A DNA stretch of 64,000 bases. Origin: Dysidea avara (taxonomy: Eukaryota > Porifera > Demospongiae > Dictyoceratida > Dysideidae). The notes under the pieces were generated by a model that was not told where the DNA came from, made no database searches, and saw nothing but the letters and a program-made list of their open reading frames with translations. The stretch lies in the NCBI RefSeq assembly GCF_963678975.1, contig NC_089278.1, positions 11,869,479 through 11,933,478 of the forward strand. Reading direction: 5' to 3'. Below are positions 1-63,696 of the stretch, one piece after another (the first letter of the stretch is position 1; the number at the start of each line of letters is the position of its first letter). The position numbers were made by a program, and so were the translations under genes.

Positions 1-2543
1 TTTTTGACAACTGCTTTCGTAAGGTAGGTTTCCCTGATGTAGAAGATTCTTCATCATCTGACAATTCAGCAGACATAGCATTTACAAGAACCTCTAAAAT
101 AATGGAATGTGCAGATTCAATAGGGTCTTCTGTACTGCCAGGCAATGTGTTTGAAGCGGAAGTAAATTTCACATTTAGTAGGTCCAAAACATCATCTGGA
201 ATACGATCCACAATCTGTGAAGCAATATCATCAGCATCTCCTGTGTCTGGATTAAGCAATTGCCTCATTGTTTCTTCATCTTCTTCAGTGAACACTTGTT
301 CTGTTGCTGTGCTGTCTGATTTTGTGTCCGTGAGGGACTTTTGTAATGATTGCTGGAGTCCTTCTACATCTGCAGATGACAATTGCTGCTTAGACCGTAC
401 TTTGTGTTGCAGTTTCTCCATAAAACTGATAGTAAATTTGGAAGAATCACCAGACTGAAACTTAGTTTTGCTGCTAGAAAAACTCCCAGTAAAGCTGCCG
501 GCTTGCCAGTTGCGACCTAAACTTGTCTCAACTAAAGAGTTTCTCCTCTCGATGTGATTGACAGAAGCATCTACTACATTTTCAGCTTGTAAATATATTG
601 TGATGAGGGTAACCACTTCATTGGCTATCTGTTGACACACCTCCTCAACTTCTGTCCCATGTTCTTTGAATGGTTTTGTAGCTGATTTAGCTATAGCCGG
701 AACACAACAATACATATATGAACACTAACTTAATTTAACTATTCTGAAGACCATGTAACCACACAGGTCGAACAAGCCCCATTATATTGACCTATTAAAG
801 CCTATCAGCTTACCTGAATAAAACATGCTCCTTACTCTAACAGCTTGTCCAGCCAGATCAACAAATCCATAGAGTGGTTTGCTAGTGGTCACACTGCCGC
901 ATATTTTCCCTTCATCTTTGTCATTCAAAAACATATGCAGGTCTCCATTAAATTTCACCATTATCCCTATCTTGGTCTTGCATTTCAGAGTGTCCAGATT
1001 GAATGGTAGTTTGTACACATTACCACTGTGCCTCAGTGTATCTGTGATGGCTACCCAGTAGTCTGGATTGTGACTGAGGTAGAGAGAACTCTGGGGCATT
1101 TCTATGGATGATGGATCCAATGTGGTTATACCAATGCCCTATAGTTGCTTGTATATAGCTACGTAGCACAGTGCATGATACACTTACCAAAGAAACATGA
1201 TAATTTCCAGACAATTCCATCAATCGTACAGTGAATGTCTCTTCTAATCTTAGTGGCTCTTGAGTGAAAACAAACCCATTGGATTTTCCTGGCTGCTTAC
1301 GAATTGCAACTCCCCTGTTTTCTTTGAATGTAATATTAGGGCTGGCTTTCTCATGGAAACAACCAAACGCTCTGTTATTCCACCTCTTACTGTCCATTGA
1401 CAGTAACTGAAAACTGGTATCCACAGCCAGTGTCATGCTCCGGTTAATACTATCACCATGACTACTACTACTGACCAGCAGTGTACCACTTTTTTTCTTG
1501 GTCTCAGTAGGAACATTTGGGTCAAGTGTGTACTTCTTTGGTGGCAATGTTCTGTGTTGACGTCTCAGGCTACCACTGGAATATCCAGTACCTTTACCAC
1601 CAGATCGATCTAAGGTAATACAACCATGTGTTGTACATACTGACTGAATACAACAACAACTTACCCACTATAGGCAATGCTCTTACACGTATAGCATCAC
1701 CACAAAGATCTACAAATCCATAGAGTGGCTCATTATCTGGAAGGTTGGTGAGAACTTGTCCTTTGTATCTCTTGTATTCACCGTTGACGTAGAAACATAG
1801 TCGACCTCCTTCTCTCACTCTGCAGCCTATGATGTCACCTTGGCTGAGAGACTCAAGATCGTATTTTACAGCCCAGTGGACATTTCCATTCCATGCAGAA
1901 GAGCCAATTAAAATCCAGTGATCAAAACGTGTCTTGAGTTTATCAGAAGATTTGGCTATGTCTGAACTGTCTTCAGGCTTAAAAATAGTGAACCCGATTT
2001 TCTAAATAATAGGCAATGTTTGTGGTTAAAATTACATACAGGCTACAAAATTAATGTGATCAATAAGAGTTTTTGTTACATTAGACTTGTAACACACAGC
2101 CGTGTGGATACAATAATGCACTTGTCAATGCCCCCCATGTCTGACCAGGGATCTTGCCCCACTCTTGTGGCTTGACAACGGCAGCTTATTAGCTAAGACA
2201 AAGCAAAATTATTTTTTCATTTGGAGATTTGTTAAGCGCTTCTTTCAGTGACCGGGAAGGGGTGGGGCATGACAATGCTAGGTGCGTAATCCTAGATTAG
2301 ACACAAATAGTCTACTATGTCACAGTGAGGCCTCACCAAATTGCTGTTAAAATACTTGACTTTCTCTTCCAGCTTTACTTCAAACTTGCAGCCCAAGGGG
2401 ACCGGGTTCTCGGTGTAGAGTACTGCGTTTGATGGGTTCTTTTTGTCTTTTCTCGTTGCAACCACGCCATCTCGGAGAAGTTCAATATTGGAGCCGTGCA
2501 GTGGTGAAAACGTCGTCTTAACACCGCCTTGTTGATTACCCAT
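1..2543 (-). CDS. Two-NHR (Neuralized homology repeat) protein, 3' end outside window
   Basis: Five exons on the minus strand: 2543-2337, 2001-1665, 1609-1188, 1138-814 and 690 to beyond position 1, with introns in phases 0, 1, 0 and 1. The protein opens MGNQQGG, a possible N-myristoylation start, and goes straight into a first NHR: exon 1 plus exon 2, with KIGFTIF at the junction and LYGFVDLCGDAIRVR near its end. A Ser/Lys linker precedes a second NHR from exons 3 and 4, ending LYGFVDLAGQAVRVR. The last exon is acidic and Ser-rich with a predicted helical stretch (EEVCQQIANEVVTLI) and no recognisable domain. NHR domains mediate protein binding in Neuralized E3 ligases, but no RING is visible here; one could lie beyond the window. 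The NHR call is strong; the function is not known. Confidence 0.85.
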
Positions 2544-3492: not shown

Positions 3493-6400
3493 TCAAGATT
3501 CAAGCAGTGAGGTAGTCACTTGTTGCAGTTCACTACACAGGTTACTGGCTGATGGCCTATCCTCAGGCTTGACACGCAGGCATTGTTCTACCAAATCGGA
3601 AAGTGCATGATCTTTTCCAATTAGTTGAACAGCTTCTAATACCCTTTGCTTTTCTGCATCTTCATTAATGGGTTTATTACGATGACTTGGTTCTTTGTGA
3701 GTCACCAACTGAACAACGGTCACCCCAAAAGAGAATACATCAAGTGGTGGGGATATCTGTGGTGCATCTGTAATAGCCTCAAGTGGTAGGTAATTGTGTA
3801 ACGATGGTGAAACAGATCTGCTATTGATAGCAACCTCACCAAAGCCAACATTTGATAGTTTGGCACTGAAGAATGCTGTGAGGTGAATGTTGGCTGGAAT
3901 AATAGCACAATGGACTATGGGAAGTGACTGCTGGTGCAAGTAGCATAGAGCTTTAGCTACATCACTAGCTATGGTAAGTTTTGAACCGACTGGTAACTCT
4001 GAAGTGCTTCTTCTGTTTAGCACAGCATCAAGTGTCATTGGTAACTGTTCAGTGATTGACAACAATGCATCCTTTTCAGTATCTTTGACAAAACCTAACA
4101 GTTGTAACAAATTGGGGTGTCTTAGTTTCACCAGCTTCTTGTACTTCTCAAACAAAACCGCATCAGGGTACAAATCCTTTTTGTACCTTGTGATCAGACA
4201 GTCAGTCTCCATCCATTTTGACTGGTACGATAAGCCAAATGTGCCATTGGCGATGACAGTACTGAAATCTGTATTGACATCACCCCAGGAAATCAAAAAA
4301 TCTTTCAGCACAAGAGGCAACAAAACAATTTCTTTCTTGTAGTTATCCACAGCTGGTAGGTCACAAGTGTTTTCATCACTGTCAGTAGAGTCTTCTTTGC
4401 TTAACTCCTTCAGTAAAGGTCTTTCAAGTTGTACAGTAACCACTTTAGTTAGTCCAGAAGAAGAACTATTGCTGGAGAATGAAATAATGCTGTGTCTTTT
4501 TTTGGTGTTATCTTTATTTGAAATCTCTTCTATTACTGCACTATTCCAACTTCCAGTAGGCAGAGAGGTGCTACGTCTTCTTTGCAAAGTTGGTTGTTTT
4601 TGAAATGATTCTTGTTTCTCAACAGGATTAACACTTTCGTCAAGTAGGCTATCCTGAGATCCACTGGCTACAGGATTAAATGTTGTTGTTGCTTCATCTA
4701 ACTGTGTGGAAGCAATAGCTGGGATGCTCATAGCCCGTCTCATTGAATCACCTCGTGGTCTTTTAGGACTTTGAAAATGTCTGGCACTTTTTGGAGTAAG
4801 TTGAGGAGACCCTTGATGTCTGTGTTCAAGATCTACAGAATAGTAATAATACACAATTGATCTATCACTTCAGTTCATAGCAATGGACAAGGCCAAAACA
4901 CTAATATTATGAAGAAATTTGTGGACATTTGCTTTACTTTGTTCATGGCAAAAATGCCAGCTGAAGCACAGGCATGTCCAATACATTTCTATTGAGAACG
5001 ATTGTGTACCTTGTATAGTAACTTTCAGGGTGTGATATGTGTAGAGTAATTCTCTGCGAACACAATACTGCAAAATAGTCTAAACCAATGTGGCGTAGCA
5101 AATTCCCCCTTTGTATTGGGCATTCATGTATAAACCGTAACACATGACAGATACTTCAGATTCCATTGGTAAGAGCAGTGAATGACATAGCTATAGCAGA
5201 AGGAGTCAGTGAAAATTTAAGCGAGCCATTTTTGAGGTTGCATGAAAATCACTTTCTTATTTTATGGAGAATTGAATGGCGAATATTTGGAAGGGAACTC
5301 TAATTAAAATCTTACCTCTTGACACCTATTAACCCTCACTACATTAGTGTAACACTGAAACAAAAATGTTGTGATTAGCTCTGCAGGTTAATTTGTGATA
5401 TTTACAGTTTTTCTGTAACTAAGGACAATAACTGTCCAAAAAATTTTAGCAAACTTTTTTAGCATATTCACAAAAAAATTATAAACAAGGCGCTTAAAAT
5501 TGGTGTGGTAAGAAACCCTATACTACAGTAGAATAATATCACATTTTCATTCTTTTCCACCAGACCTGGTACAATTCGTGGCTATGTGGTAATCACCAAT
5601 GGATGGGTAATAGCATACTAGAAGTACAACCTCGTAGCTGGTCTACTTTTTGATATTGCAATAGAACGTCCCATCTGTTCACCCACGCATATCACGATAT
5701 AGTGGGTACTGTGGTGAATATTTCAAAAAGCAGACCAGCTACTCCATTGTGCTTCTAGTATGTCATTATCCATTAATAGACTGTTGCCATACTGCCAAAA
5801 ATTAGTTTTCTCACTACCTCTGGTGTCAAACTATGGGCCAAAATGAAACAATTCTTCTGTATGTCTTCTCACCATCACAAATGCACTGAACAGCCACTTA
5901 ATGGCAATTTGGTAGTCGCCTATCAATGGAGAATAAAGTGAAAAAATGACCATGGAGCCCACCAAGTCCCTACACAAGATGAAATTGTTCCACTGCTGCA
6001 TCAGGAAGTAGACTAGCTACGAGTTTATGCTTCTGGTATGTTGTTGCCCATTCATATGTGGTTACCACATAGTCATGAAATAGCTGCTCCTGTACAAGGT
6101 CTGGTAGAAAGAACGAAGACGCATTATTTTCTATTGCACCATTGGGGCTTTATCCACACGTCTCAAATAGACGTCGCACGTGTCTTAAATAAACACCAAA
6201 TTTGTGACATCACATGAATACGCTCTATATGAACCTCAAGAGACACATATATAACAAATGGTAATTAATAGTATAAGGCCAATATTACCACGGACATGGA
6301 ATATAATGTGGCCCTTCACACTTAGCTTCACATAGATAATGGGACAACAGCCACTGACACAAACTTGTGAAAATACTGTATTGCTTACTTGCCATTGGAA

Positions 6401-7058
6401 GTAAACTGACTTTGGAAATTGAACCAGACAGCTCCACGAAAGCATTAAAGACACCGAGATTTCTCCTCAAAGCTGGAATATTAACTGGTTTACCAGTGTA
6501 ACGTTTATACTTTCCATTGACATAACAGCAGATCCGACCATCGTCCTCTCTAACCCTAATACTCACAATATCCCCCACACTCAACTTTGTGTAGTCAAAT
6601 TTGATGGCTCGTGATTCTCCAAAGTTTGTCACAGTAGAATCTGAAGCAATCCAGTAATCAGCCACAGACAACAGGTCATCTCCATTACTGCACACTGCCT
6701 TAGGTAGTTTTGTTGTAAAACCAATTTTCTAGCGGACACAGAAATACATTGTTAGAATTTACACCTTAACCATAGATTTATAAACCCCAGATATAAATCT
6801 ATGCCTTAACAATGTCAAAATGCATGCAATTTGCACAAATTCAGTCTGACTCACCATGCTTCCTCCGGTCTGTCTGCTCTTTTCCTCCACTCTTATTTCG
6901 ATTTTGACTCCCTTTGGTACCTCTTGTTCCACGTATGCAATCGTGTCAACGGCGGTGGATTTATTTAACCTCGAGGCAACAACCCCGCCCTTGCTGAGTG
7001 CCACGTTTGTCCCGTGCAGCTTTTCATCGAAAGTGATCCGCGTCCCTTTGTTTCCCAT
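3493..7058 (-). CDS. Predicted NHR-pseudokinase fusion protein
   Basis: Three exons: 7058-6855 (phase 0 end), 6728-6389 (phase 1 end) and 4832-3493, totalling 1884 nt or 627 residues. The protein starts MGNKGTR, has one NHR in residues 1-181, then a Ser/Arg-rich linker with RRxS-type sites (RRAMS, RRRSTS), then a TKL-like kinase fold from about residue 365 to 620. Fold landmarks are present: HPNLLQLLGF, DVFSFGV and EDRPSA. Catalytic motifs are lost: the beta-3 VAxK lysine aligns with Thr in LITRYK, HRD reads HCA, and DFG reads NVG. This should be a pseudokinase with a scaffold or allosteric role. The join between exons 2 and 3 spans 1.55 kb and rests on matching phase, good GT/AG sites, absence of other exons and the identical phase in the neighbouring paralogue. 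If the join is wrong these are two genes. Confidence 0.7.
5531..6140. repeat. Inverted repeat element in intron of NHR-pseudokinase gene
   Basis: Arms at about 5531-5665 and 5990-6140 are reverse complements with scattered mismatches (for example ACCAGACCT and CTCGTAGCT in both arms). A third diverged piece at about 5690-5785 also pairs with the left arm. I see no flanking duplication. It accounts for much of this long intron. Confidence 0.65.
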
Positions 7059-7314: not shown

Positions 7315-10300
7315 TCACTTCCTCCCCGATGCATTCGATAGTCCAGCTGTCAAACGAGCTTTCTCTATCGTTGCTTTGACTATAAACTGTCTTCTTGATA
7401 GCTCTCGGATATTCTGTAAACGGAGGTACAAAAACAATTTAAAATGTGCCACAGTGATTTTCCACATTTGTAATAATGACAATGAAGTCGTTTACTAGAT
7501 TTAGTGCCTTGGCTTTTTATTGTTTCATCCACTGTTGTTTACTACTTTAGCAAAATGCACATGTTGTGAATGTATATTTCCTGTTTCACATAAGACACTT
7601 GCCTTGTTTAGTGTTTGCATTTATGTGTTGACTACATGTGAAGTATGATTCCTACTACCATAATTGGTCTATTTTAAATGTTATGTGGTTGTTACCATGG
7701 TAATTAACAATGGGAACTCCTGTCAATACCTGGTGTGGTGTCTCTGACTAAACAATTTACGACCATTTACAATCATATGCTATGCAATTAGTACATTTCC
7801 ATACTAAAAGTGATGACAAATATGGCAATAATGCTTAGTCATCATACATACAAGATTAGCTAGAGTGATGATATATTATGCAACTACTGCGTACATGTAT
7901 ACAACACCAGAGCAACTAGTTGTTGTTACTTAGGCGTCGCCAAAAAGAGTTTGATGTCTTACTTGATGTCTTACTTTAAACAAAGACCTCACCCCAGAAA
8001 ATAAACATCAGCTTACCAAAACAATATGTACTGCTACAACCAACACTCGTGCGTTTGTAGGTAAACATGCTTCTGTACAGTTATGCAATAGCACAACGAG
8101 TAACAGCAATGTACTTTAAACATTAAATCAATCTATTTGCCCACACTCCACAAACATTGCCTTTAAGGTCCCCTTTGTTCCAGAATTATCATTTATCATC
8201 ACTTACGTATGGCAAACTGAAGCCAGCATGCAGAGGAAACACAAGTGAGCAGGAAACTAAATGCAACTTGTATGAATTAAGTAGCAATTGATCAATTTCA
8301 ATAAGCTCCATATTTAAGATAATGCAGAGACAATTAGAGCATAGTATATGGATTACTTTCAGAAACACTTCCAATGTGATGGCCTCTCTCCTAAGTGCCT
8401 CCCCCAAAAAGTACATAGCATCATCGATAGCATTCTCCTCAGCATACAAGTTGAGTATCCTGGAAAGTAGCATGAAAATAACAACATAAACACTAGTCAT
8501 GCCATAAACAATACTAAACATACATATGGACACATACGCACGCACACACACTCAACTGGTTAAACACCACATTTGTCCCCTGCACACTATCGTCAACATC
8601 AAATTCTTCTGGTTCTTGTTTCAACTGCTCTACTACAGATGCCAACTCAGCACTCTTCATTTGTAGTTCCTCAATAGCCTTATCAGCCTCAACCTGTATA
8701 TAAGTACATAATTATCTGTACCTTTTTAAGAACCAATCCTTAATATCCATTTTATACAAATGTAGTGCATAATACAATATGCTACTTATTGAAAATCCAC
8801 ATAATATACATCTACTGTACAAATAACTTGACAAACAAAGAGTATTATGCAACAAGATCAGATAGTTGTATATGTGAGAACAGACCATGGCATTGATCAG
8901 AATGTATTAAATATCTATATGGATATGGTATCAATGCCTTTTTCTTTAATAGAGACCTAAGCTGCTTAACGGCTATAGTTTCTGTAAGTGTAACAATCAT
9001 GTATAAGTTTACCCATAGCAACATTAAATCAAACCAATGGTCCATACATGGATCTCATTGTAAGTGATGAACTATACTATATCCCAGCACAGTGAAGATA
9101 TAGCATCCCCAGTGACATATTATATGCACATATGATAATGTATCATAATGATTAACAGTGTCAGCTAAAATCCTATTTACTAATCAAAGATTGGTCTTTT
9201 CAGAAACTTACTCCTCATACCCAAAATATGCACACTATCACATACTAGTGTGTGGCATAGCTGCGGCTACTAATTTTAGGGTCATGTACTGTCGTATAAG
9301 AAATATAGTCACACACAATGTACAGCCAAACATAGTGACTGATATTGGTACTGACATTAGGCAAGTCTTAAATGTGACTGGATCTGTGAAAACACTGTAC
9401 AATGTACTACTGTTTTCAAAATGTTTCTATTTTAAGATAAAGCCTTTACACCAGAACCATTTGGAGTTGCAGTACTGAAGGTAATAAAAACAAAAAAAGT
9501 TGATCTGTACAAAAATTATACTAGTAGGGATCATAAAAGGCCTGAAAATTACTTGATTTGCAAAATTAATTCTCTAATTTTAGCCATGTTTAAAAATTGC
9601 TGTTGACCAAATAGGAGCTAAATTTGCACATCAGGTGATGATCTCCCTTATTTCAGCAGTAATCATTCCTACTCTTTCTTGTAGACTGGTGATACACACC
9701 ATTAGGCCATAAACTAAAAATGTGCCCCACCAGGATAGTTACTTAATATTTCAAATGTAGGAGGCACAGTGTGAAAATTTGTGTTTGATAGCCAACACAC
9801 GAAGCCATTGAAGCACATACCCTACAGGTCACAACCTTAGCACTAGAAAAGAAAACAATAAAGGCTATAGACAGGTTGCAACAACTAAGGTGTGGTGTGG
9901 TAAAAATTGCTATGGCTTCAGATTTCCAGGGAAAAGTGAGGGCAAAACCATCAAGAGTTCTGTTGCAAAAACCTTCCCTAAGCAGAATTAGGCAAAAGTA
10001 TGTTATGTACTTTTACCATTTACCTACTAACTCACTTTGTAGTAATAATAATCTAACTTTCAGTATGATGCCTTTATTTATTTATTTATAATGTACAGGA
10101 CTCAGAATTAAGTACAGTGTACGTGTACAGATACAATTTATTAAATCTATAGATGATTTTCTAAAAGTGTTTGCAATAGCATTTTAAAAATTTTCCTAGG
10201 ATCTAACACATACATTTTTTTTGCCCCCAAAAATAGTTTCTTATTGTGCGCATGTGATTTTCTGGGGCCTAAGTAATGTTGTCAAACTGTGGAAAGTCAA

Positions 10301-24831: not shown

Positions 24832-26088
24832 TCATTTCCTATGTAGCAGAATCTGATCATTGTTATGGAACAGTGATACACAGAAATACAATTCATCATC
24901 ATCTATGGGAACTGACATGGATTTGTTTCCTATTTTAGCACGTATTCTTTGATTATGAACAAAAATAGACCCATCCACTTCTTTCCCTATTGAAATATGA
25001 TTGGCATTCATTTTGACTGAATGACGATATTCGTGAAAGTAATGTAATTCAAAGGTTATCTTGGTCTTGTCATTACACTGCTTTATGAGTACTTCAAATA
25101 TTATAGGGTTTTCTTCTGTGGGACATATCTGAAGTTCAGTACTGCTGCCATACATGTCACCAAAGAGTTCTGATGGTGGTCCAATCTTTGTAATTAGAGT
25201 GCCCTTAGGTATACATTCAACATTTAGTTCAAAAGAATTCTCAGGTCTGAAATGGAAATAGTAATTTCTCAGTTCTACTTGCTCTTCAGGGCCATCATAC
25301 TTGTCACCATTGTGATACTTTAAAGCAGCTTTGTAAAGACCTGAATCAGCCATTCCTGTAGGAAACACCTTGTTGAGTATATCGGTCTTACAGATTAGTG
25401 GGTAACGGATCTGTTTGAATACTGATTTAATATCATCATCACTTAACTTTTCTTGTTGATGCTTATACCACTCAACAACTGCAAGGAACAAGGCCATTTC
25501 CCCAACTTTGAGCTCATATGAGCTTACAAAGGTAAGCATGACTGTAAGTGGTAAGGAAACAAACCCTACTGTATAAATGACTTTTTTAGCTTTTACTTCC
25601 ATAAACATGATGCATCTTTCAAGGAGCAAGTCATAGTCATGTTCTGCTGCAAATTCAGCAACACTAGAGAAGTTATCAAGATCTAGTGCATTGCTAATTG
25701 ATTCACTGCACAAGTCTATCAGTTCATCAATAGCAAAGTATCGGGCAGCTTGTAATAGGTAACAACACTTTTCCACACTCACTTTTATGTGGCCAGTGTA
25801 CATAAAGAAAAGCAACGTGTCCAAAGTTGCTGTATCTATATTTGGCAGGTGTATCTCTTTCTGACCACCCTCTTTCATGTCTCCACACAACATGGCATGG
25901 AACACTGGTGAACCAGCAGCTAGTATCATCTTGTGAGCACCAACAAGATCACCATTAGAAGTCTTGAATGTCACATCATGTGTACTGGGATCTTGTAGTA
26001 CTGAATAAAACACATTAGCACACCAGTATGTATCATTACTTTCGCAAGCTTCTTCTCCTTTTGAATCAACTTCAGAACTTGATGATTC
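24832..26088 (-). CDS. BTB-BACK domain protein, first exon not found
   Basis: One large exon from an acceptor at about 26088 to the stop at 24832. The frame stays open through the Met at 26013 up to the acceptor TTATAAACAG, so the start codon is probably in an upstream exon I could not place. The sequence begins with a Ser/Glu-rich stretch, then a BTB/POZ domain (DPSTHDVTF, AHKMILAAGSPVF, LLFFMYTGHI, CCYLLQAARYF), then a BACK-like helical region (WYKHQQEKLSDDDI, IRYPLI) and a beta-rich C-terminal domain of about 140 residues with no Kelch repeats. BTB-BACK proteins commonly act as Cullin-3 substrate adaptors; the C-terminal domain would then bind the substrate. That role is inference. Confidence 0.82.
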   Translation of the reverse strand, partial: ESSSSEVDSKGEEACESNDTYWCANVFYSVLQDPSTHDVTFKTSNGDLVGAHKMILAAGSPVFHAMLCGDMKEGGQKEIHLPNIDTATLDTLLFFMYTGHIKVSVEKCCYLLQAARYFAIDELIDLCSESISNALDLDNFSSVAEFAAEHDYDLLLERCIMFMEVKAKKVIYTVGFVSLPLTVMLTFVSSYELKVGEMALFLAVVEWYKHQQEKLSDDDIKSVFKQIRYPLICKTDILNKVFPTGMADSGLYKAALKYHNGDKYDGPEEQVELRNYYFHFRPENSFELNVECIPKGTLITKIGPPSELFGDMYGSSTELQICPTEENPIIFEVLIKQCNDKTKITFELHYFHEYRHSVKMNANHISIGKEVDGSIFVHNQRIRAKIGNKSMSVPIDDDELYFCVSLFHNNDQILLHRK

Positions 26089-26239
26089 TGTTTATAAAAG
26101 CAAAGAACATTAGGAAATCAATGACTAAAAAGCTTTCAAAAAGCCAAGGTATTGAAATCAAATGTGGCAGCCAAGAAATGAGATGCCAATACTATCATTA
26201 TTTGACATTAATAACATTGTTTGTCACCATCAATTTTTT

Positions 26240-28737: not shown

Positions 28738-29220
28738 CATAGATATACTAAACTTTACAACAGGATTGGAAACGGAAGTAACTCATGTGACGTCTCTGTA
28801 CAAACTCCCAATGTAACATAACAAAATTGAAAAAATTATACATGTTTTGCTTGTACAAGTGATAGTTGTTACGAGCACGAGCTCATCTTTAATGGCTTTC
28901 TTTGTCAGCTGTTCATAATTTGTCAGCTATTAATGTGACAAATTAGTTAATTAGTGTGATACATGGTGACACGAAATGATATGCTATAAGGGCAGCACCA
29001 CTGTTGTGAATTAATAAGCAGCTAGTACGGCCTGAGGTAAGTAAATTACAATACGGTCACACCTTCTTGTGCTTGTAGAGTTTTCACAAATTTCTGTGTA
29101 AGGAAGTAGCTTAACGTATTGTATTTTAACAATTATACCCAGCATACTGTGTAACTAGCTACTTATATTATCTATTGCCATGCTTCACAAATTCACTAAT
29201 TTGCAGTTTTCACTTGTATA

Positions 29221-29853
29221 CCACTTCCCTCCAGTACAGGTGCTACTCTACCACCACTGCCCTCCAGTACAGCTGCTACTCTACCACCACTGCCCTCCAG
29301 TATAAGTGCTACCATACCACCACTGCCCTCCAGTACAAGTGCTACTCTAACCATCACTGCTCTCCAGTACAAGTGCTACTCTACCACCACTACCCTCCAG
29401 TACAAGTGCTACTCTACCACCACTACCCTCCAGTACAAGTGCCACTCTACCACCACTGCCCTCCAGTATAAGTGCTACAATACCACCACTGCTCTCCAGT
29501 ACAAGTGCTACTCTACCACCAGTGCCCTCCAGTACAAGTGCCACTCTACCACCACTGCCCTCCAGTATAAGTGCTACCATACCATCACTGCCCTCCAGTA
29601 CAAGTGCTATTCTACCACCACTGCCCTCCAGTACAAGTGCTACTCTACCACCACTGCCCTCCAGTATAAGTGCTACCATACCACCACTGCTCCCCAGTAC
29701 AAGTGCTACTCTACCACCACTGCTCTCCAGTACAAGTGCTACTCTACCACCACTGCCCTCCAGTATAAGTGCTACCATACTACCACTGCTCTCCAGTATA
29801 AGTGCTACTCTACCACCACTGCCCTCCAGTACAAGTGTCACTCTACCACCACT
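29221..29853. repeat. 33-bp minisatellite, about 19 units
   Basis: Unit CCCTCCAGTACAAGTGCTAC followed by 13 more bases. As 33 is divisible by 3, long open frames appear on both strands: Pro/Ser/Thr-rich 11-residue units on plus and Gly/Leu/Val-rich units on minus. A one-base insertion near 29349 shifts the plus frames between units. It may be transposon 5' sequence or a true low-complexity coding stretch. Confidence 0.9.
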
Positions 29854-31227
29854 GAATTCTTGTGTTACTTCGCCACTGCTACCTCTCAGTGCTACCTTCC
29901 CTATCATCTAATGTTACCATACCACCACTGTCACCATTGTCTAGTACTGCAATGTCACCATTTCCTGGTACACAGCCATGGATGCTGCAGTTCATTTCAA
30001 CAAGTTAGCCAAATAAATGTAAGTGTGAACACAGCAACACAAGAGTACATGTTTATAAAATTGCAGATATTGATGAGTCTGTGGATGAACAACCCCTTGT
30101 TATTAGCCATAAAATTGTGATATTGAGTGACTGCACTTGGTCATTATGTGTTCATGGACATCAGGTGGATTCATCTATATGTTCTAATCTTGCCACTGTA
30201 CCATCAGTTTTAGAACCAGGGAGCTGTTTAGCTTTTCTAAAATTAGTAGATGGTTCAAATGTGTGTGTAGGTCAGCCAGATTCTCGATTTGTAGAATTGT
30301 TGCAGCAGAAGAGCAATAAAATTGTGTCACCTGATGGCAGTAGGAGTGCCTATATTGATGATTCTGCCTGTGTTCATTACAATGATCAGTGTTATTAAGT
30401 AACTGTGCGGTGTGAGATCCTTACAAGTGCAACAAAGTGCAAGCATCAAAGGAAGGCTTGGGTTTCAACCACAAGTGTTGGAAATGCTTCAGAAAGAATC
30501 AGACATAGACAACCTTCCTGAAGCAAAACGGTATGTAATACTAACTCTGGATGAAATGAAGATCAAGGAAGACATTGTATTTGACAAGAATACTGGTGAA
30601 ATGATTGGATTTATTAACCTCAGTGATATCAATAATGCTATTCAAGATTTACAAAAAGACAATACAGTTGACCACCCACCTATTGCAATGCATCTCCTCA
30701 CCTTGATGATTTGAGGAGTGTTTATCCACCTTGAGTTTCCTGTTGCACATTTTGGTACTGACAAATTAACAACAGGTACACTGTTTCCTATTGTGTGGGA
30801 AGGTGTACAACATTTAGAAGAAATGGGCTTCAGAGTGATAGGAATAATGCTGATGGAGCAAGCCACAATCAAAAACTTTCCGCATGCACAGGAAATCAAA
30901 TTCAGACAGCTCTTATGTTTACAAGACAGAAAATCCATTTTCAGAGGAAGAGCGTTTTATTTATTTTATTTCAGACCCACCACATCTGATCAAGACTGCC
31001 CGCAATTGCTTAAGCCATTCATACGGGCATGGATATACCGGGTAATTTACTACCTATAAGCATGCATACTGTTTGACTGTAGGCAGATTTGGCAAATATT
31101 AAACCAATGTAGTCTACCACAGGCCTAAGTCTGTAATATTTTCTGCTAAGATTATCATAATGTTGTTGTGAGTTGTCAAAATGCCTTCGCGCTAAATAGC
31201 TATGTGATACATGTATGTATACATCTA

Positions 31228-54000: not shown

Positions 54001-57000
54001 TGCATTGACCAGCAATGTGCAATAATGCATTGAGTCAGTACAATATTCACCAAGTCTGTGCATCACGGTTATTTCTGCAACCGAAGCAGGAAATAACATG
54101 AATAGCTAACACGTGTTACCGACTGCTAGACAATAAAATGGAAGTTTTCCTTAAGTTTGAGGGCTCCAGTTGAGTTGTCATAAGAGATAGAACAATAGAG
54201 GACGAGCTCAGGAATGGTATGGCACATTTTGTGTATGTGATATGATGGGCCAAGAAGGAATTGATAATGAAGGTAAAAGTTCGACAACCACACAATACCT
54301 CCTTCAAAAGTATGAAGAAAAATGGAAAAAATTTGCTGATGTTGCTAATATATAAGAAAGAACTTAAGGATGGAGACTATTTTAACAGTGGCTGTGAAGC
54401 CAGGACAGACTGCAGACGCAGGGTGTACTATCCAAGGCGGCTCGCCTAAAGTGAGGCAGTGAGCTAGTTAACAGTAACACTTATATGTAGCATAGTGCTT
54501 TTACTCGCTTGCACAGGAAGAGGAACTGACATCCAAGAGTGCTGGTAAAATTAAAAAGCCTACAAAGATTGAAGCCAATGATTTAGCAAAATTGTTCCCA
54601 TCTTCAAGTGCCATAAAGTGACCAGTCCTGAAAGACACAAAAAGGCGTAAACAGTCATGGTTACAAGACAAATGAATGCAGATCAAACAAAAGCTGCTAT
54701 TTTAAAAGAATTTGCTAAGGACTATCCATCAAATGTTATGTAACTTCGTTCAACTTCATTTTTATATGAATACAACTTCTTGAAGCACTTATGTCAGGTT
54801 CTTTACGGCAATGCAATGGCCAATAAGAGAGGAATCCTATACACAAAGGAAACAATTTTGCTCTGCATGCAGGTAGTATGTGTTATGGTAAATATTATGC
54901 ATGTATAATAACAAAGATTTTTTCACAGGCTGAGAGACTGGACACTGAGTTACTGAGTGTTGAACCAAGAGACAATCAGTACTTTTACAGTACGTTCCAT
55001 ATAATGTAATGCAACTCTTGGTTAAAAAAAACAAACAAAAACACGAGTGCACCATAAGGCATTTGAGCACCTGAGTGGATCTTGGGTGTATCTCATCCCC
55101 AAACCCACATCCACAATTTTTTATTAAACATTCCATAATGAATTTTCAATATTGTGTAATAGTTATCATTATTATACATTTCTGTATTGTTCTAATTGCT
55201 GCACGTTATTGAGTCACGTGATTAAGAATTATTGCCCCGTGTAAAGTGTTAATCATTTCACATTGGTGCCAAAACCTGGGAGGAAGAAGCAGCTATGGCA
55301 ACAAGTGGAGGATTTGCAAATCCTTGCAGGATGAAGACTCGAGGACCTGGTTCAAAAGATTTGAAGTATGCGCTGTTGCCAATGGTTGGGACACAGTGAA
55401 GATGTTGTTACGCCTTCCCACCCTTCTCAAGGGACACACCTGTGCGATATTTGATTCCCTGGACAGATACTTACGAGTATTTAAAAGCAACGCTACTGAA
55501 GCACTTGAGCCCAGACACGGAGGAGGACCACTTGACAGCTCATAAACAATTGTCTGTGAGAAAATTTAGAGAGGGTGGAAACGGAAACAGATATTTACGA
55601 GCATTTAAAAGCAGCGCTTTGGAAGCGCTTGAGCCCAGACATGGAGGAGGACCGCTTGACAGCTCATGAACAATTGCCTGTGAGAAAATTTAGAGAGGGT
55701 GGAGAGAGCATTGATGAATTGGCTCGCGATCTCGAGAGATTACTCGACAAGGCCTCTCCAGGACTGCCTGCAGCTGTGAGAGACTCAGAGCTATGCTTCC
55801 ATCTGATGAACTCTCTCCCAGAAAGGGTTGCTCTACAGTTGAAGCTGCACACTTATGTGGAGATTATTGCCAAAGCTAGAGAGCTCTGCCTGATTTACAG
55901 TACGGTAGATACTACAAGTGCAGCTAAAATTAATCATGTTGCTGAAACCACTCGTCTGGACTGGATGGAGGCTACCCTACAAAGCCTGTTTGAGCAGCTA
56001 CTAACTCTTAACATTCATCAGAAGGGGCCCACTCACTGCTTTGTTTGTGGGAGGCTAGGCCACATCGCAAAGAATTTCAGAGCATGGTGAACTCCACCAG
56101 CAACTGCTGCCTGCTTCAGATGTGGGAACCTGGCTCGCAACTGTTGGCAGCAGGGAAACGGGAGACCAGAACATGCAAGCATGGAGTGCTCCCCCTTGCA
56201 AGTGAATGCTCGCACAACACAACAACACAAAACATTCCAGAAATGAAACACCGTGCACACAACATAGTTAGGCTTGCATACACAACAGGGAAGGTAAATG
56301 GCCAAGTGATGCAAATGCTCCTAGATTCAGGTGCCTCCTATTCTGCTGTCAGCAAACATGTTCAAATTGACCAACTGCAACCAGGACAGTGTACCCAACT
56401 GGTCAATGCTGATGGCAGAGTATTTCAGCCTTTAGGCACATCAACCATGATTATTACCTTAGGGGAACTCTCAGTAAACTACACATAGTTGTGGAGCAGT
56501 TATTTGTACCCATCATACTAGGCTGTGACTTCTTATCACAATATGGCCTCATTCTAGACATCCAGGGAAGAACAGTGTACCGGTTAGGATCCCCAGACTT
56601 CCTGAACGTTAATAGCGTAGAAATGTGTGGTCCTCTAGTCATGGATAATGAGCTGCCTCAGGCTGTGCCCTGTAGGAGCACTGGTTCCTGTCACCTTGAC
56701 CTTCCCAACAATGTACATCCTGCACTCACACACACATTGTCAATGAATACAACACACTCTTCTCACAACAGATAGAATGCACCAACATTACACAGCACAC
56801 CATTGACACTGGTGACTCTCCACCAGTTAAAGTACCATCCTGCCCCATACTCTTCCATTATGTAGACCGTGTCCAACAGCAGCTGGCTGACATGGCCCAA
56901 GAAGGTATCACAAGGCCAAGCAGCAGCCCCTGGTGTGCCCCAGCAGTATGTACCCAAGTCAAATGGGGAAATACGAATGTGTGTTGACTTTGTCCAACTT

Positions 57001-60000
57001 GAATGCAGAAGATTCATACCCAGTCCCTAGAGCTGATGGACTTCACCATTGTTTGGCAGGCAAGCAGATCTTAGATTTGAGAAGCACATATTGGCAATTC
57101 CCTATGCACCAGTTTTCCATCAAGAAGACTGATTTAAGCCCAGGGCCCGGATACGGCCTGTGGGAGTTTGTGGTGATGCAATATGGGTTGACAGGAGCCA
57201 CTCAAACCTGCCAGAGAGGACTTGACGAGATCTTTTGTGAGTGTCACGATTGTGTGAATAACTACGAGGATGATATTATTATTATTGTCTTTTCAGTTGA
57301 CATACACTCTCACAAGGAATATTTGCGACGGGTGTTGGGGTAACTTAAGACAGCTGTTCTGCGAGGTTCCAAGTGCCTCCTGGGGCAAAGCTCCATCACA
57401 CACCTGGGCTTCCACTACTCTGCAAAAGGAGTGACACCCTCTGCTGACAAAACTAAAACAATAGCTGAGTGGCCAATACCCAAGTCCTCCAAAGAGCCTC
57501 AGTCCTTTTTAAGCCTTGTTAATTTCTACAGAAACTTTGTCATTGGCTTTGCAAACATAGCTGCTCCACTCAACAACCACCAGTTGCTGATCCAAATTCA
57601 GTACCCACTTCATTTAGTTGGAGAAAATCCCCCCTGCATCATTACAAGCAACTATGGCATCAGCTGACAATGACAGATTCAATCCTGTATAGAATGATGA
57701 AATCTCCCACCATGGTAGAGGAGAAAAGATTGGTCATTGTTCCTCTGTCTTTACAGCAACGATTTTTAGTAGAAGCACATGACTCATGCAAACTGCCTAC
57801 TGGGTTGGCATGGCCAAGGAGGTACGTAGGCCATTACTGTAGCCACTGCAAAACATGCCAGGCCACCAAGGCCCACCCTGCAACTTCGAGAGCCACATCC
57901 TTGCAGATCTTTGCAAGGCCTTCCGAATTACCAAATCTCAAACCACACCATATCATCCAAATGGAGACTGCAGGGGATTGGGAAGAACATCTTCAACTAC
58001 TCTTGTTTGCACATCGCACAACAAAACACTCTTCCACAGGCTTAAGAATTATTGCCTCATGCAAGTTCGAGTGCTAATCATTTCACAATTGTACGAATGT
58101 CTACTTATATATATTTTAATTGTAAGTCCTCAGTAGTCTTTGCAGGCTTTTATTTTTATTTTTTACAATCTATTATTGAACAGAGAGTGCCAGCGGTGAA
58201 TTCCATTAGTGCAGAGCTCCAGCTGCGTACAATTAATGTAGTGCAATTTACCCTAGGGAACTGCTTATTAGACCTGCTTATAAACCAGGTGCGTGCCCAT
58301 ATCTGCCAAGAGACTGACTGTGGGTGAGAGCCTAGTTTTCTGAAGTTATTTTCAAAAACTCATGTGTATGTACATACGTATGTTTGAAGACTAATTACTA
58401 AAGACTTTAATAATAGGTAATATGAAGCAAGATAACTGCACCGTTTCATGTGCTTCATCACTGGCAGTTCTGTAATGATTGCCAAGGATCACTGCTTCAT
58501 TCAACAGTTTAGACAAGCTAGAAAGAAGACTGATTGACCACACATGCCCATGCGTCTTGGAATTTAGGTCATATCAATGTACATCGAATTTGAAGAATTC
58601 TCAGAGTACAATGCTAGCCAGTGAAGCATTATGGATATACACGGTTACCATCATCAATTTGTATGTAAATCAACGTGTGATCACACCTGGCTTAGTTGTT
58701 CTTATGGCAAGTGTACCGAGGATTGTGGAACAACCACTCCTCCTTTGTTTTCATCTTCATTGTCATCTCCAAATGAATCACTTGTATCATCAGCCCCAAT
58801 ATGCTTCATTCACTCTGTTGAAAAAAATCAAATGTAGATATGCAATAAAGAACTGATTAGGGGTCATGCCATGTGCAGTTCTTATTTCACAGCTATTCCA
58901 TCTTTAATGAAACTGTTATAGAACAGAATTTATCTTTGGTAGATAATTTATAAAACATAGCGAAAAGCAAATAGATGAATTTCATTTGTAGCATCCAAGA
59001 GGTATTGATGTTCCATCAAATGGTAATATAACCTTGTGACACATCTATACATCATAATCCTTTAGTGTTTTTAAACAAAATGAAAGGTAAGAACCAACGT
59101 CTTTTGAGATGCAGCTTAGCACTGCAGTCATATGATCTTTGTATTAAGCATATTCCTTAGTTATTAGGGTTTTTGTTGTAGGGTTCTTATTGTGTATGCA
59201 TCTTTCTTTATGTGGGGCGTGTGATAGTGTGTTACTGATACTATAAGAGAGGCGCATCCCAGTGTGGGACACGGCACTAATTAGAGTAACTGAAGTGACA
59301 CGTTGTATCGTGTACAGTCAGGTCCATAACACTGATGAAACCTGATAGTTGTTGTTTGCTTGAGAGTCTAACCTATCAACATACAATTGCCAATGTTCTC
59401 CAATTCTTCTTAACCAACCTAACAATTCTGTGAACTCAGTAGAATAGTGCTTGAGAATGTATGTATTACTTTCACTTTGCTGCCCACATTCCTCTAAGAA
59501 ACTATAGAATTTTGAAAGTGATCTCGTAAGTAAGATATGTTTGAAATGAATACTTTCAATTACATATTGGGAAAATCCTTCATTACACATTGCAAGTGAG
59601 CTGGTCATAAAAAGCTGTTAATTTCTTCAAAGAATGTCTCCCATCCTCACAATACCTGTCCCTCACAATACCTGTCCCTCAGATCTGTCAGTTATGTTAG
59701 CTGTTATAGCATTAGCCATAAAGTTAGCTGTCCATGAACTGTACCCATGGCTGTTTCTCAACAAAGGTTTCTGCTCAGGATGCAAAAATCACCAGTCACG
59801 GCATGTCCGCCATTTATGTCATGGAGGGGTGAAGACACTCTTGCACAAGCTCATATTGTACCAACTCAATGTATCAATGCACTGACTCAATGTATTACTA
59901 GCCAGTGCAATATGACATCCGAGTCAATGTAATACGACATTGATAATGATGCAATATAACATCACTAACAGTCAGAAATGCAATTTGATTTTTGTTACTA

Positions 60001-62085: not shown

Positions 62086-62691
62086 AAAAAATAAATAAAA
62101 ACGAATGGCAATGATGTTTATCTTGCCTGGAAAGTAAGCTAACAAGTCAAATAAACACATGGGCTTGATCATGTACAGGTTACTAACTATTTTAGTATCC
62201 TCACTACAGGTCTCTGTTGCCTCAGACATCAGTTGCATAAAGAGAAGATAAAATGTACAGTGTCCTTTATATGGAGGGTCCCTTAATAGAAGTTCCACTG
62301 CATATGACAGGGCCAGCAAAAAAAAACTGGACATTTGGGCACATAAAAATTCACCTACTTTTTCAAACTTTCACTTTTTATTCCATTACACTATGGCCAT
62401 ACAAATTTCAGCACTTACTAAACTGCTAAGTAGCTCTGTAGTATAAGTTAGAGAATGTACTTGTAGCTATTCCACCCAGGTGATTATATATGCGTAGTAA
62501 CTATATAATACCTATATTGCACTAATCACATGCACATTTGATTGTAACACATGCAGCACATGCATACATGATGTAACAATAAGTAACGTGATGAAGGATT
62601 ATTCGAGAACTTGATTAGTTGTATTGGCACGTGTATGGATGAACTATTGTATTGTTGATTGAATGAACTGTGTGTATTACATTGGTAACAG

Positions 62692-63696
62692 ATGATGGCT
62701 GTGTCACAGGCTAAACACATTAGTTTGCCCAGTATGTTTTCAAGTGGAAACATTTCGGAGTGGTTTGCGCGATTTGACATTTGCTCCAAGGCTAATGGAT
62801 GGAATGACGAGACTAAAGCACTCAAATTGCCTACGCTACTCGAGGGAGAGGCACTAGCATCATGGCTAGAGTTGTCGGAAGAGCGACAAGGCGATTTTAA
62901 GATAGCGAAAGAAAAGCTTGTTGGCAAAATGACACCGTTGCCCTTTACGGCTTTGGAAGAGTTTCACGCCCGGAAGATGCGCCCAGGAGAGGCGCTGTCA
63001 TTGTTTACCCAGGACTTAAAGCAACTTTTACAGACTGCCATGTCAGGATTAGACAAGAAAGCTGGTGAACAGATGTTGATTCATCAGTTTTTGACAGGTT
63101 TACCAACCACAATTAGTCGGCAGCTACGTGCGACAGGTGAGACAAATGAACTCGATAAGGTGGTGGAACGGGCTCGCCTTTTAATGACAATCGACAACCA
63201 GGACCTTCTGCATAGTGTAGCCGCTACAGGGACTTCTTCAGTACCCAATCAGCCAAATAAAGTAACTCGTTTAATGGACCAGATGGAATCGCTCACGCAG
63301 CAAGTACCAGCCCTTACAACACTCAAGTCAACTAACTCACGGTATCGTCCAGGACCAGTACGATGCTTTAACTGCCAAGGCTTACGCCACCTGCAACGGA
63401 ACTGCCCTAGTCCTCCTTACCAAGGCCGACAACCAAGATTTTCTCGAGGCTGTTTCAACCCGGACACATTCAAAAAGAGTGCCCGCAGCAGGGAAACGGG
63501 GAAGGGACATCTGGAATGGGTCATCGGCGTCCCAAACCCTAACTGTAGACCCACCCACTTCCATAGTTACTGTAGCTACAATCAAAACAGATGCAGCAGT
63601 CATTCAGGCCTACTTTGGAAACAAGTCAACAGAAATGATGTTGGATTCTGGTTCAGCAGTATCACTGGTAAGGCAAGATATTGTCAAGAGTTCTAA
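62692..63696 (+). CDS. Gag of a second Ty3/gypsy element
   Basis: 334 residues. The N-terminal half is a retrotransposon gag (capsid-like) region (SEWFARFDICSKANGW, LLEGEALASWLELSE) and the C-terminal part has one CCHC knuckle (CFNCQGLRHLQRNC). A second knuckle near 63450 is damaged: CFN is followed out of frame by GHIQKEC, as if bases were lost. The Met at 62692 follows a possible primer-binding TTGGTAACAG at 62681. Gag packages the RNA and forms the particle in this class. Confidence 0.8.
   Translation: MMAVSQAKHISLPSMFSSGNISEWFARFDICSKANGWNDETKALKLPTLLEGEALASWLELSEERQGDFKIAKEKLVGKMTPLPFTALEEFHARKMRPGEALSLFTQDLKQLLQTAMSGLDKKAGEQMLIHQFLTGLPTTISRQLRATGETNELDKVVERARLLMTIDNQDLLHSVAATGTSSVPNQPNKVTRLMDQMESLTQQVPALTTLKSTNSRYRPGPVRCFNCQGLRHLQRNCPSPPYQGRQPRFSRGCFNPDTFKKSARSRETGKGHLEWVIGVPNPNCRPTHFHSYCSYNQNRCSSHSGLLWKQVNRNDVGFWFSSITGKARYCQEF

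Follow-up and report, generated by a model that had tools for sequence, protein, structure and literature searches.

A predicted gene joining an NHR to a pseudokinase, and its tandem neighbour, in the sponge Dysidea avara

The window, by which we mean the whole 64,000-nucleotide stretch of DNA that was analysed (C7:11869479-11933478 of a 550.8-Mb assembly), carries a gene, named NHRK1, that is predicted from DNA alone and almost certainly encodes an NHR and a kinase fold in one protein. The joining of NHR and kinase, which was the starting observation, is confirmed. NHRK1 is the upstream member of a predicted tandem pair; the second gene, NHRK2, shares this architecture and has two NHRs.

Gene model: NHRK1 is built from three minus-strand exons (Table 1) that splice in frame and yield a reading frame of 1884 nt, free of internal stops, for a protein of 627 aa. 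The start codon lies in the context ACAATGG, and exon 1 ends with ATG, directly followed by GTGAGT. GTAAGC comes directly after exon 2, and exon 3 opens in phase 1 with TTCTGTAG directly before it; the two introns, of 126 and 1556 nt, are both GT-AG. The first-pass annotation had read the exons 6728-6389 and 4832-3493 as ending and starting in phase 1, joined by good splice sites. The phases are borne out, and the added exon 1 completes the frame. The verdict on the splice sites holds for the donor at 6389, which ranks 58th among the strand's 4131 GT sites, but not for the acceptor at 4832, which is only fair (421st among the strand's 4054 AG sites); the ranking used generic matrices. Within 6728-4300, the same matrices place this acceptor 16th of 160 AG sites, with 15 scoring higher. 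Further AG sites that are in phase by arithmetic occur inside exon 3, at 4667 and 4352, and the agreement in phase of two exons is by itself worth about 1/3. Splice phase alone is weak evidence because the acceptor is fair and these other in-phase sites exist. About 560 of the 1556 bases of intron 2 belong to an inverted-repeat element with three arm pairs that are 73-90% complementary.

Table 1. Positions of the predicted features of NHRK1 and NHRK2 (window coordinates unless L019 is given)
Feature	Position	Strand	Description
NHRK1 exon 1	6855..7058	-	204 nt, end phase 0; contains start codon, N-terminal MGNKGTR and initial part of NHR
NHRK1 N-terminal MGNKGTR	7038..7058	-	fits N-myristoylation pattern (permissive)
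NHRK1 exon 2	6389..6728	-	340 nt, ends in phase 1; remainder of NHR
NHRK1 intron 2	4833..6388	-	1556 nt, GT-AG
Inverted-repeat element within intron 2	5554..6110	.	resembles small non-autonomous transposon
NHRK1 exon 3	3493..4832	-	1340 nt; Ser-rich linker, kinase-fold domain, stop
NHRK1 kinase-fold domain	3526..4266	-	residues 371-617; window positions by arithmetic from Pfam match
NHRK2 exon 1	2337..2543	-	MGN start, first part of NHR1
NHRK2 exon 2	1665..2001	-	second part of NHR1, ends in phase 1
NHRK2 exon 3	1188..1609	-	linker, first part of NHR2
NHRK2 exon 4	814..1138	-	second part of NHR2
NHRK2 exon 5	1..690	-	linker; continues 576 bases past window to L019 9404
NHRK2 kinase exon	L019 9317-8134	-	comes after exon 5, in left flank

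Domain content: Scored singly with Pfam, the exons of NHRK1 match Neuralized at 1.1e-5 (25.8 bits) and 0.0014 (19 bits) and a kinase at 8.8e-21. The spliced protein matches Neuralized at residues 13-177 with an E-value of 3e-15, covering profile positions 3-147 of 149 and reaching 56.9 bits against the curated PF07177 cut-off of 23.3 bits, and PK_Tyr_Ser-Thr (PF07714) at residues 371-617 with 1.8e-20. The domain annotation that the first-pass annotation had proposed thus finds PF07177 and a kinase match in one 627-aa sequence. For the kinase fold (PF07714/PF00069), NHRK1 and NHRK2 each score 73.8 bits, above the cut-off of 23.1 bits. Pfam scans at E up to 1 find neither a RING nor a SOCS box in NHRK1 or NHRK2, and a RING motif matches neither in L019, the ten kilobases to the left of the window, nor in the window's first 12 kb. 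The N-termini of the two proteins, MGNKGTR and MGNQQGG, both fit a permissive N-myristoylation pattern, so acylation is only predicted. An AlphaFold model of 291 residues of the kinase exon, made from one sequence, had a pLDDT of 33.6 and was unusable. RxxSxP is a motif like 14-3-3 sites, and the NHRK1 linker contains two such sites, a number reached or exceeded in 116 of 20000 shuffles; they were set aside because the motif was picked post hoc and NHRK2 has none.

Tandem neighbour: The strongest support for NHRK1 joining an NHR and a kinase comes from the predicted architecture of NHRK2 in the flanking genome. NHRK2 is the next gene on the same strand; it starts at 2543 and extends past the left edge of the window into L019, which contains its kinase-like exon. 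Its six exons, also predicted from DNA alone, encode 1246 aa in the order NHR-NHR-linker-kinase, with Neuralized matched in two stretches (together 2.6e-59) and the kinase fold at 1.7e-20 in Pfam. The linker exon is open over 1266 nt; it runs on from NHR2, and an 86-nt intron separates its end from the kinase exon. NHR1 of NHRK2 is split at the same place as the NHR of NHRK1, exon 2 ends in phase 1 in both genes, and NHR1 is followed by an intron of just 55 nt, which opens in phase 1 at the corresponding position. The two proteins are 42% identical over NHR1 of NHRK2 and 34% identical over the N-terminal aligned block. A genome search with the kinase gave 722 first-look candidates in 550.8 Mb, which by arithmetic is about one per 760 kb; chance adjacency is very unlikely because two same-strand neighbours both have the NHR first and the kinase last. 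Homology of the linkers was considered and is not convincing, their likeness being reached by 116 of 2000 shuffles; for the first 60 residues only, a restriction made post hoc, the figure is 23 of 2000.

The split of NHRK1 into two genes is the reading on which NHRK2 bears most directly. On this reading, a first gene with only an NHR would stop within intron 2, and a second, for the pseudokinase, would start at one of the ATGs at 4743 and 4731 or further upstream within the intron. Such a split would suit an acceptor at 4832 that is fair, not strong, and both in-frame ATGs precede the kinase domain, the one at 4731 with G at -3. The first of them, at 4743, lies 3' of the acceptor in a weak context (T at -3, A at +4), and the three minus-strand ORFs of at least 60 aa wholly within intron 2 (61-70 aa) match nothing in Pfam at E up to 1. 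We also used a codon model trained on 18 kinase-family ORFs plus NHRK2 (6915 codons) to score the codons before this ATG. The 87 bases at 4830-4744 reach +5.6 bits, exceeding all but one of 720 overlapping stop-free non-coding windows, part of which also trained the non-coding model. This score is a coarse guide because negative values also occur in 9 of the 39 control windows from accepted coding sequence (range -8.4 to 13.4). Coding score ahead of the ATG counts against a separate kinase gene starting there, and it supports, without proving, that the NHR and kinase exons form one predicted gene. Because in NHRK2 an uninterrupted linker ORF connects an NHR and kinase of the same kind and the codons before 4743 score as coding, we set the split into two genes aside as very unlikely.

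The exact course of the linker is less certain than the unity of the gene. The same gene and architecture could use another phase-1 acceptor (4667 or 4352) or include small extra exons in intron 2, and only the linker would differ. Better-scoring AG sites in intron 2, the two in-phase AGs inside exon 3 and a codon score that dips mid-linker, falling below zero in three windows between 4590 and 4441 (4590-4531; 4530-4441), are consistent with such a variant. Against it, the codon score is positive in every window from 4830 to 4561, and the short intron after NHR1 of NHRK2 opens in the same phase at the corresponding place. We consider a different linker unlikely and retain the acceptor at 4832.

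Several other elements surround the pair. Just upstream of NHRK1, on the same strand, a gene at 7315-8551 (minus) matches Vps23_core (TSG101/ESCRT-I-like) at 4.6e-12 for one exon and at 0.00053, below cut-off, for the last exon; its end lies about 256 bases upstream of the start codon of NHRK1. A BTB-BACK protein is encoded by a 419-aa open frame at 24832-26091 (minus), and a minisatellite of 19.2 copies of a 33-base unit, with long open frames on both strands, occupies 29220-29854. LTR-type retroelement-like remains are found at 56891-58077 (plus), with reverse transcriptase and integrase zinc-binding matches that are both below Pfam cut-offs. A 335-aa open frame at 62689-63696 (plus) is gag-like with a CCHC-like knuckle by eye, and has no Pfam match at 0.01.

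Loss of catalytic residues: The kinase domain of NHRK1 is very probably catalytically dead, as judged from its residues. The VAIK lysine is replaced by threonine, the alpha-C glutamate by lysine, HRD by HCA and DFG by NVG, which justifies the word pseudokinase used in the earlier annotation. At the places of the VAIK Lys, alpha-C Glu, HRD Asp, catalytic Asn and DxG Asp, NHRK1 has T, K, A, N and N, and NHRK2 has Q, M, L, C and D; NHRK2 thus lacks the first four and keeps the Asp at the DFG place. The set that marks active kinases (VAIK Lys, HRD Asp and DFG Asp) is found in neither protein, which have T, A, N and Q, L, D, respectively. The relatives in the same genome present a different picture. 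All 95 first-look candidates that were scored match, and 20 of these 95 places have loci, leaving 18 aligned relatives without NHRK1 and NHRK2. They keep the VAIK Lys in 16 of 17 (one row falls short), the alpha-C Glu in 17 of 17, the HRD Asp in 16 of 18, the catalytic Asn in 18 of 18 and the DxG Asp in 17 of 18. NHRK1 and NHRK2 should be pseudokinases within a family in which most of the aligned members appear active.

Some degenerate kinases still bind nucleotide or act as enzymes through other residues. An atypical domain of this kind would accord with the two of three loop glycines and the catalytic-loop Asn that NHRK1 retains and with the Asp at the DFG place of NHRK2; both proteins have lost the VAIK Lys, the alpha-C Glu and the HRD Asp, and NHRK1 the DFG Asp as well, making residual activity of this sort quite improbable. 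Tandem copies often decay, and loss of catalytic residues would also be expected of a pseudogene. Decay is hard to reconcile with the 1884-nt open frame of NHRK1, its good start context, its NHR and kinase-fold profiles above cut-off, and an NHRK2 that is open over 1246 aa despite only 34% identity in the N-terminal aligned block; we regard it as extremely unlikely and treat NHRK1 as a working gene for a predicted pseudokinase.

In a tree the kinase domains of NHRK1 and NHRK2 group together, but the support is weak (78/35) and the branches are long. A single fusion followed by duplication is likely, and on a pairing of this quality no more than likely. The two kinases closest to the pair by tree path lie on C6 and retain K, HRD and DLG. 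Two same-genome kinases on C6 (18341418 and 18181196) are also the highest-scoring outside the pair among the matches listed; across the kinase domain tblastn gives 31% identity, and the genome search gives 33-34%. They are unlike the pair in that K, HRD and DLG are kept and, by eye, coiled-coil-like tails follow; no C6 match is among those listed from the NHR searches of the genome. Another near kinase relative on C6, at L053 6140-7819, keeps the catalytic K, HRD and DLG, and has alanine for the third loop glycine; by eye, its tail resembles a coiled coil and its C-terminus a zinc finger. Searches of viral contigs with the kinase exon and the NHR alignment, and of genome contigs with the kinase part, confirmed no relatives.

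An NHR family search of the genome returned 18 exon matches: seven on C13, representing several NHRs, four on C9, one on C3, two on C15 and four in the neighbour on C7. The exons of NHRK1 itself were absent from it and matched only with their own sequence as query, so more divergent NHR-kinases may be missed. The two C15 matches have the same exon split as NHRK1, and the surrounding 5799000-5814999 (L025, L055) contains no kinase by tblastn with both proteins and no RING motif match. Across nine loci from the NHR places plus the flank, the RING motif has no match, a search that RINGs split between exons would escape. Five NHR genes, at C9 11901206-12250774 and C3 50127165, carry the domain in one open frame of 181-207 aa; they are 58-80% identical to one of their number, four lie within 350 kb on C9, and together they are a small expansion of short NHR proteins. 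A silicatein, which would be a sponge marker, was looked for among the cathepsin-type matches in the genome; 67 of these are listed, and the two stretches read are ordinary CGSCW cathepsins.

Proposed function: The overall best explanation, towards which we lean without great assurance, is that NHRK1 is a membrane-anchored adaptor made of an NHR and a TKL-type pseudokinase. Its N-terminus would be myristoylated and hold the protein at membranes, while the NHR would bind a protein partner, like the NHRs of NEURL1 and Neuralized. The TKL pseudokinase would transfer no phosphate and would instead offer a docking or allosteric surface, possibly one that serves active TKL kinases of the same genome. 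A signalling scaffold would in this way take the place of the RING end of Neuralized; the anchored-scaffold step, drawn by analogy, is tentative, and we stop just short of an even judgement on it. That the partner is a Notch ligand is a guess. A search of the genome for DSL ligands gave no matches and was uninformative, as the control genomes likewise gave none. It is a rather doubtful, more specific proposal that Neuralized-type recognition has been wired to a dead kinase rather than to a ubiquitin ligase, placing a Notch-ligand-like or other NHR partner under the expanded TKL kinases, with the tandem pair kept.

We know of no NHR-kinase protein, and known Neuralized partners include ubiquitin-ligase domains. 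In the literature searched we recognised no NHR-kinase architecture. The first-pass annotation had inferred one gene of unusual architecture from the NHR and kinase fold, an inference now supported and matched by the tandem NHRK2. It had also stated that NHRs occur with RING or SOCS domains, which is incomplete: published work describes NEURL4 with six NHRs (PMC4565672), names the NHR in a figure legend among the domains of Aplysia TIR and COR proteins (PMC9334734) and combines TIR_2 with 'neuralized' (PMC5094078). A 2009 survey places Neuralized domains in non-bilaterians and pairs them with RING only in Bilateria (PMC2770060). If that pattern holds, the role in non-bilaterians of an NHR without a ligase comes into question, and the NHR-pseudokinase pair would be one concrete, testable answer. 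The pair would also be a natural case of a pseudokinase occupying the place of an E3 domain.

By sequence, the best solved relative of the kinase domain is plant CTR1 (2.1e-16), TNNI3K (4.9e-12) is also among the best, and the TKL-type kinase fold is common to them. Both are active kinases with other N-terminal domains, and their catalytic residues differ from those of NHRK1. The closest parallels in domain order are Neuralized, NEURL1 and NEURL1B (NHR-NHR-RING, Notch-ligand ubiquitin ligases), in which the NHRs are N-terminal to the second module, as here; NHRK2 shares with them its two NHRs. In contrast to NEURL1, NEURL1B and NEURL3, the C-terminus of NHRK1 and NHRK2 is a kinase fold in which no RING is found, and unlike NEURL2/Ozz (NHR-SOCS) the two proteins have no SOCS box. 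According to PMC6506465, it is the NHR domains of NEURL1 that bind PDE9A, and the RING does not. A study cited there found that NEURL1 is at the membrane and that this depends on myristoylation, a further likeness to the predicted N-termini of the pair, whereas PMC6506465 itself treats the location as unsettled and states that forms with and without myristoylation both reach membranes.

NEURL4 is a known case of an NHR adaptor tied to a kinase. PMC4565672 describes binding of NEURL4 by LRRK2 and an action of their complex on the Notch ligand Dll1, with NEURL4 and HERC2 linking LRRK2 to Dll1. There the tie is one of binding; in NHRK1 and NHRK2 the join is covalent, with one or two NHRs, and by eye the multi-NHR cluster on C13 is more NEURL4-like than either. 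The NHR-pseudokinase is a new domain architecture made from known domains. Shuffling with an expanded kinase family is unsurprising; the interest lies in the combination of NHR and kinase, in its occurrence in both neighbours and in the catalytic loss. If the more specific, rather doubtful proposal is true, a membrane-anchored NHR-pseudokinase would be the kinase-fold counterpart of the NEURL4-LRRK2 link, in one- and two-NHR copies.
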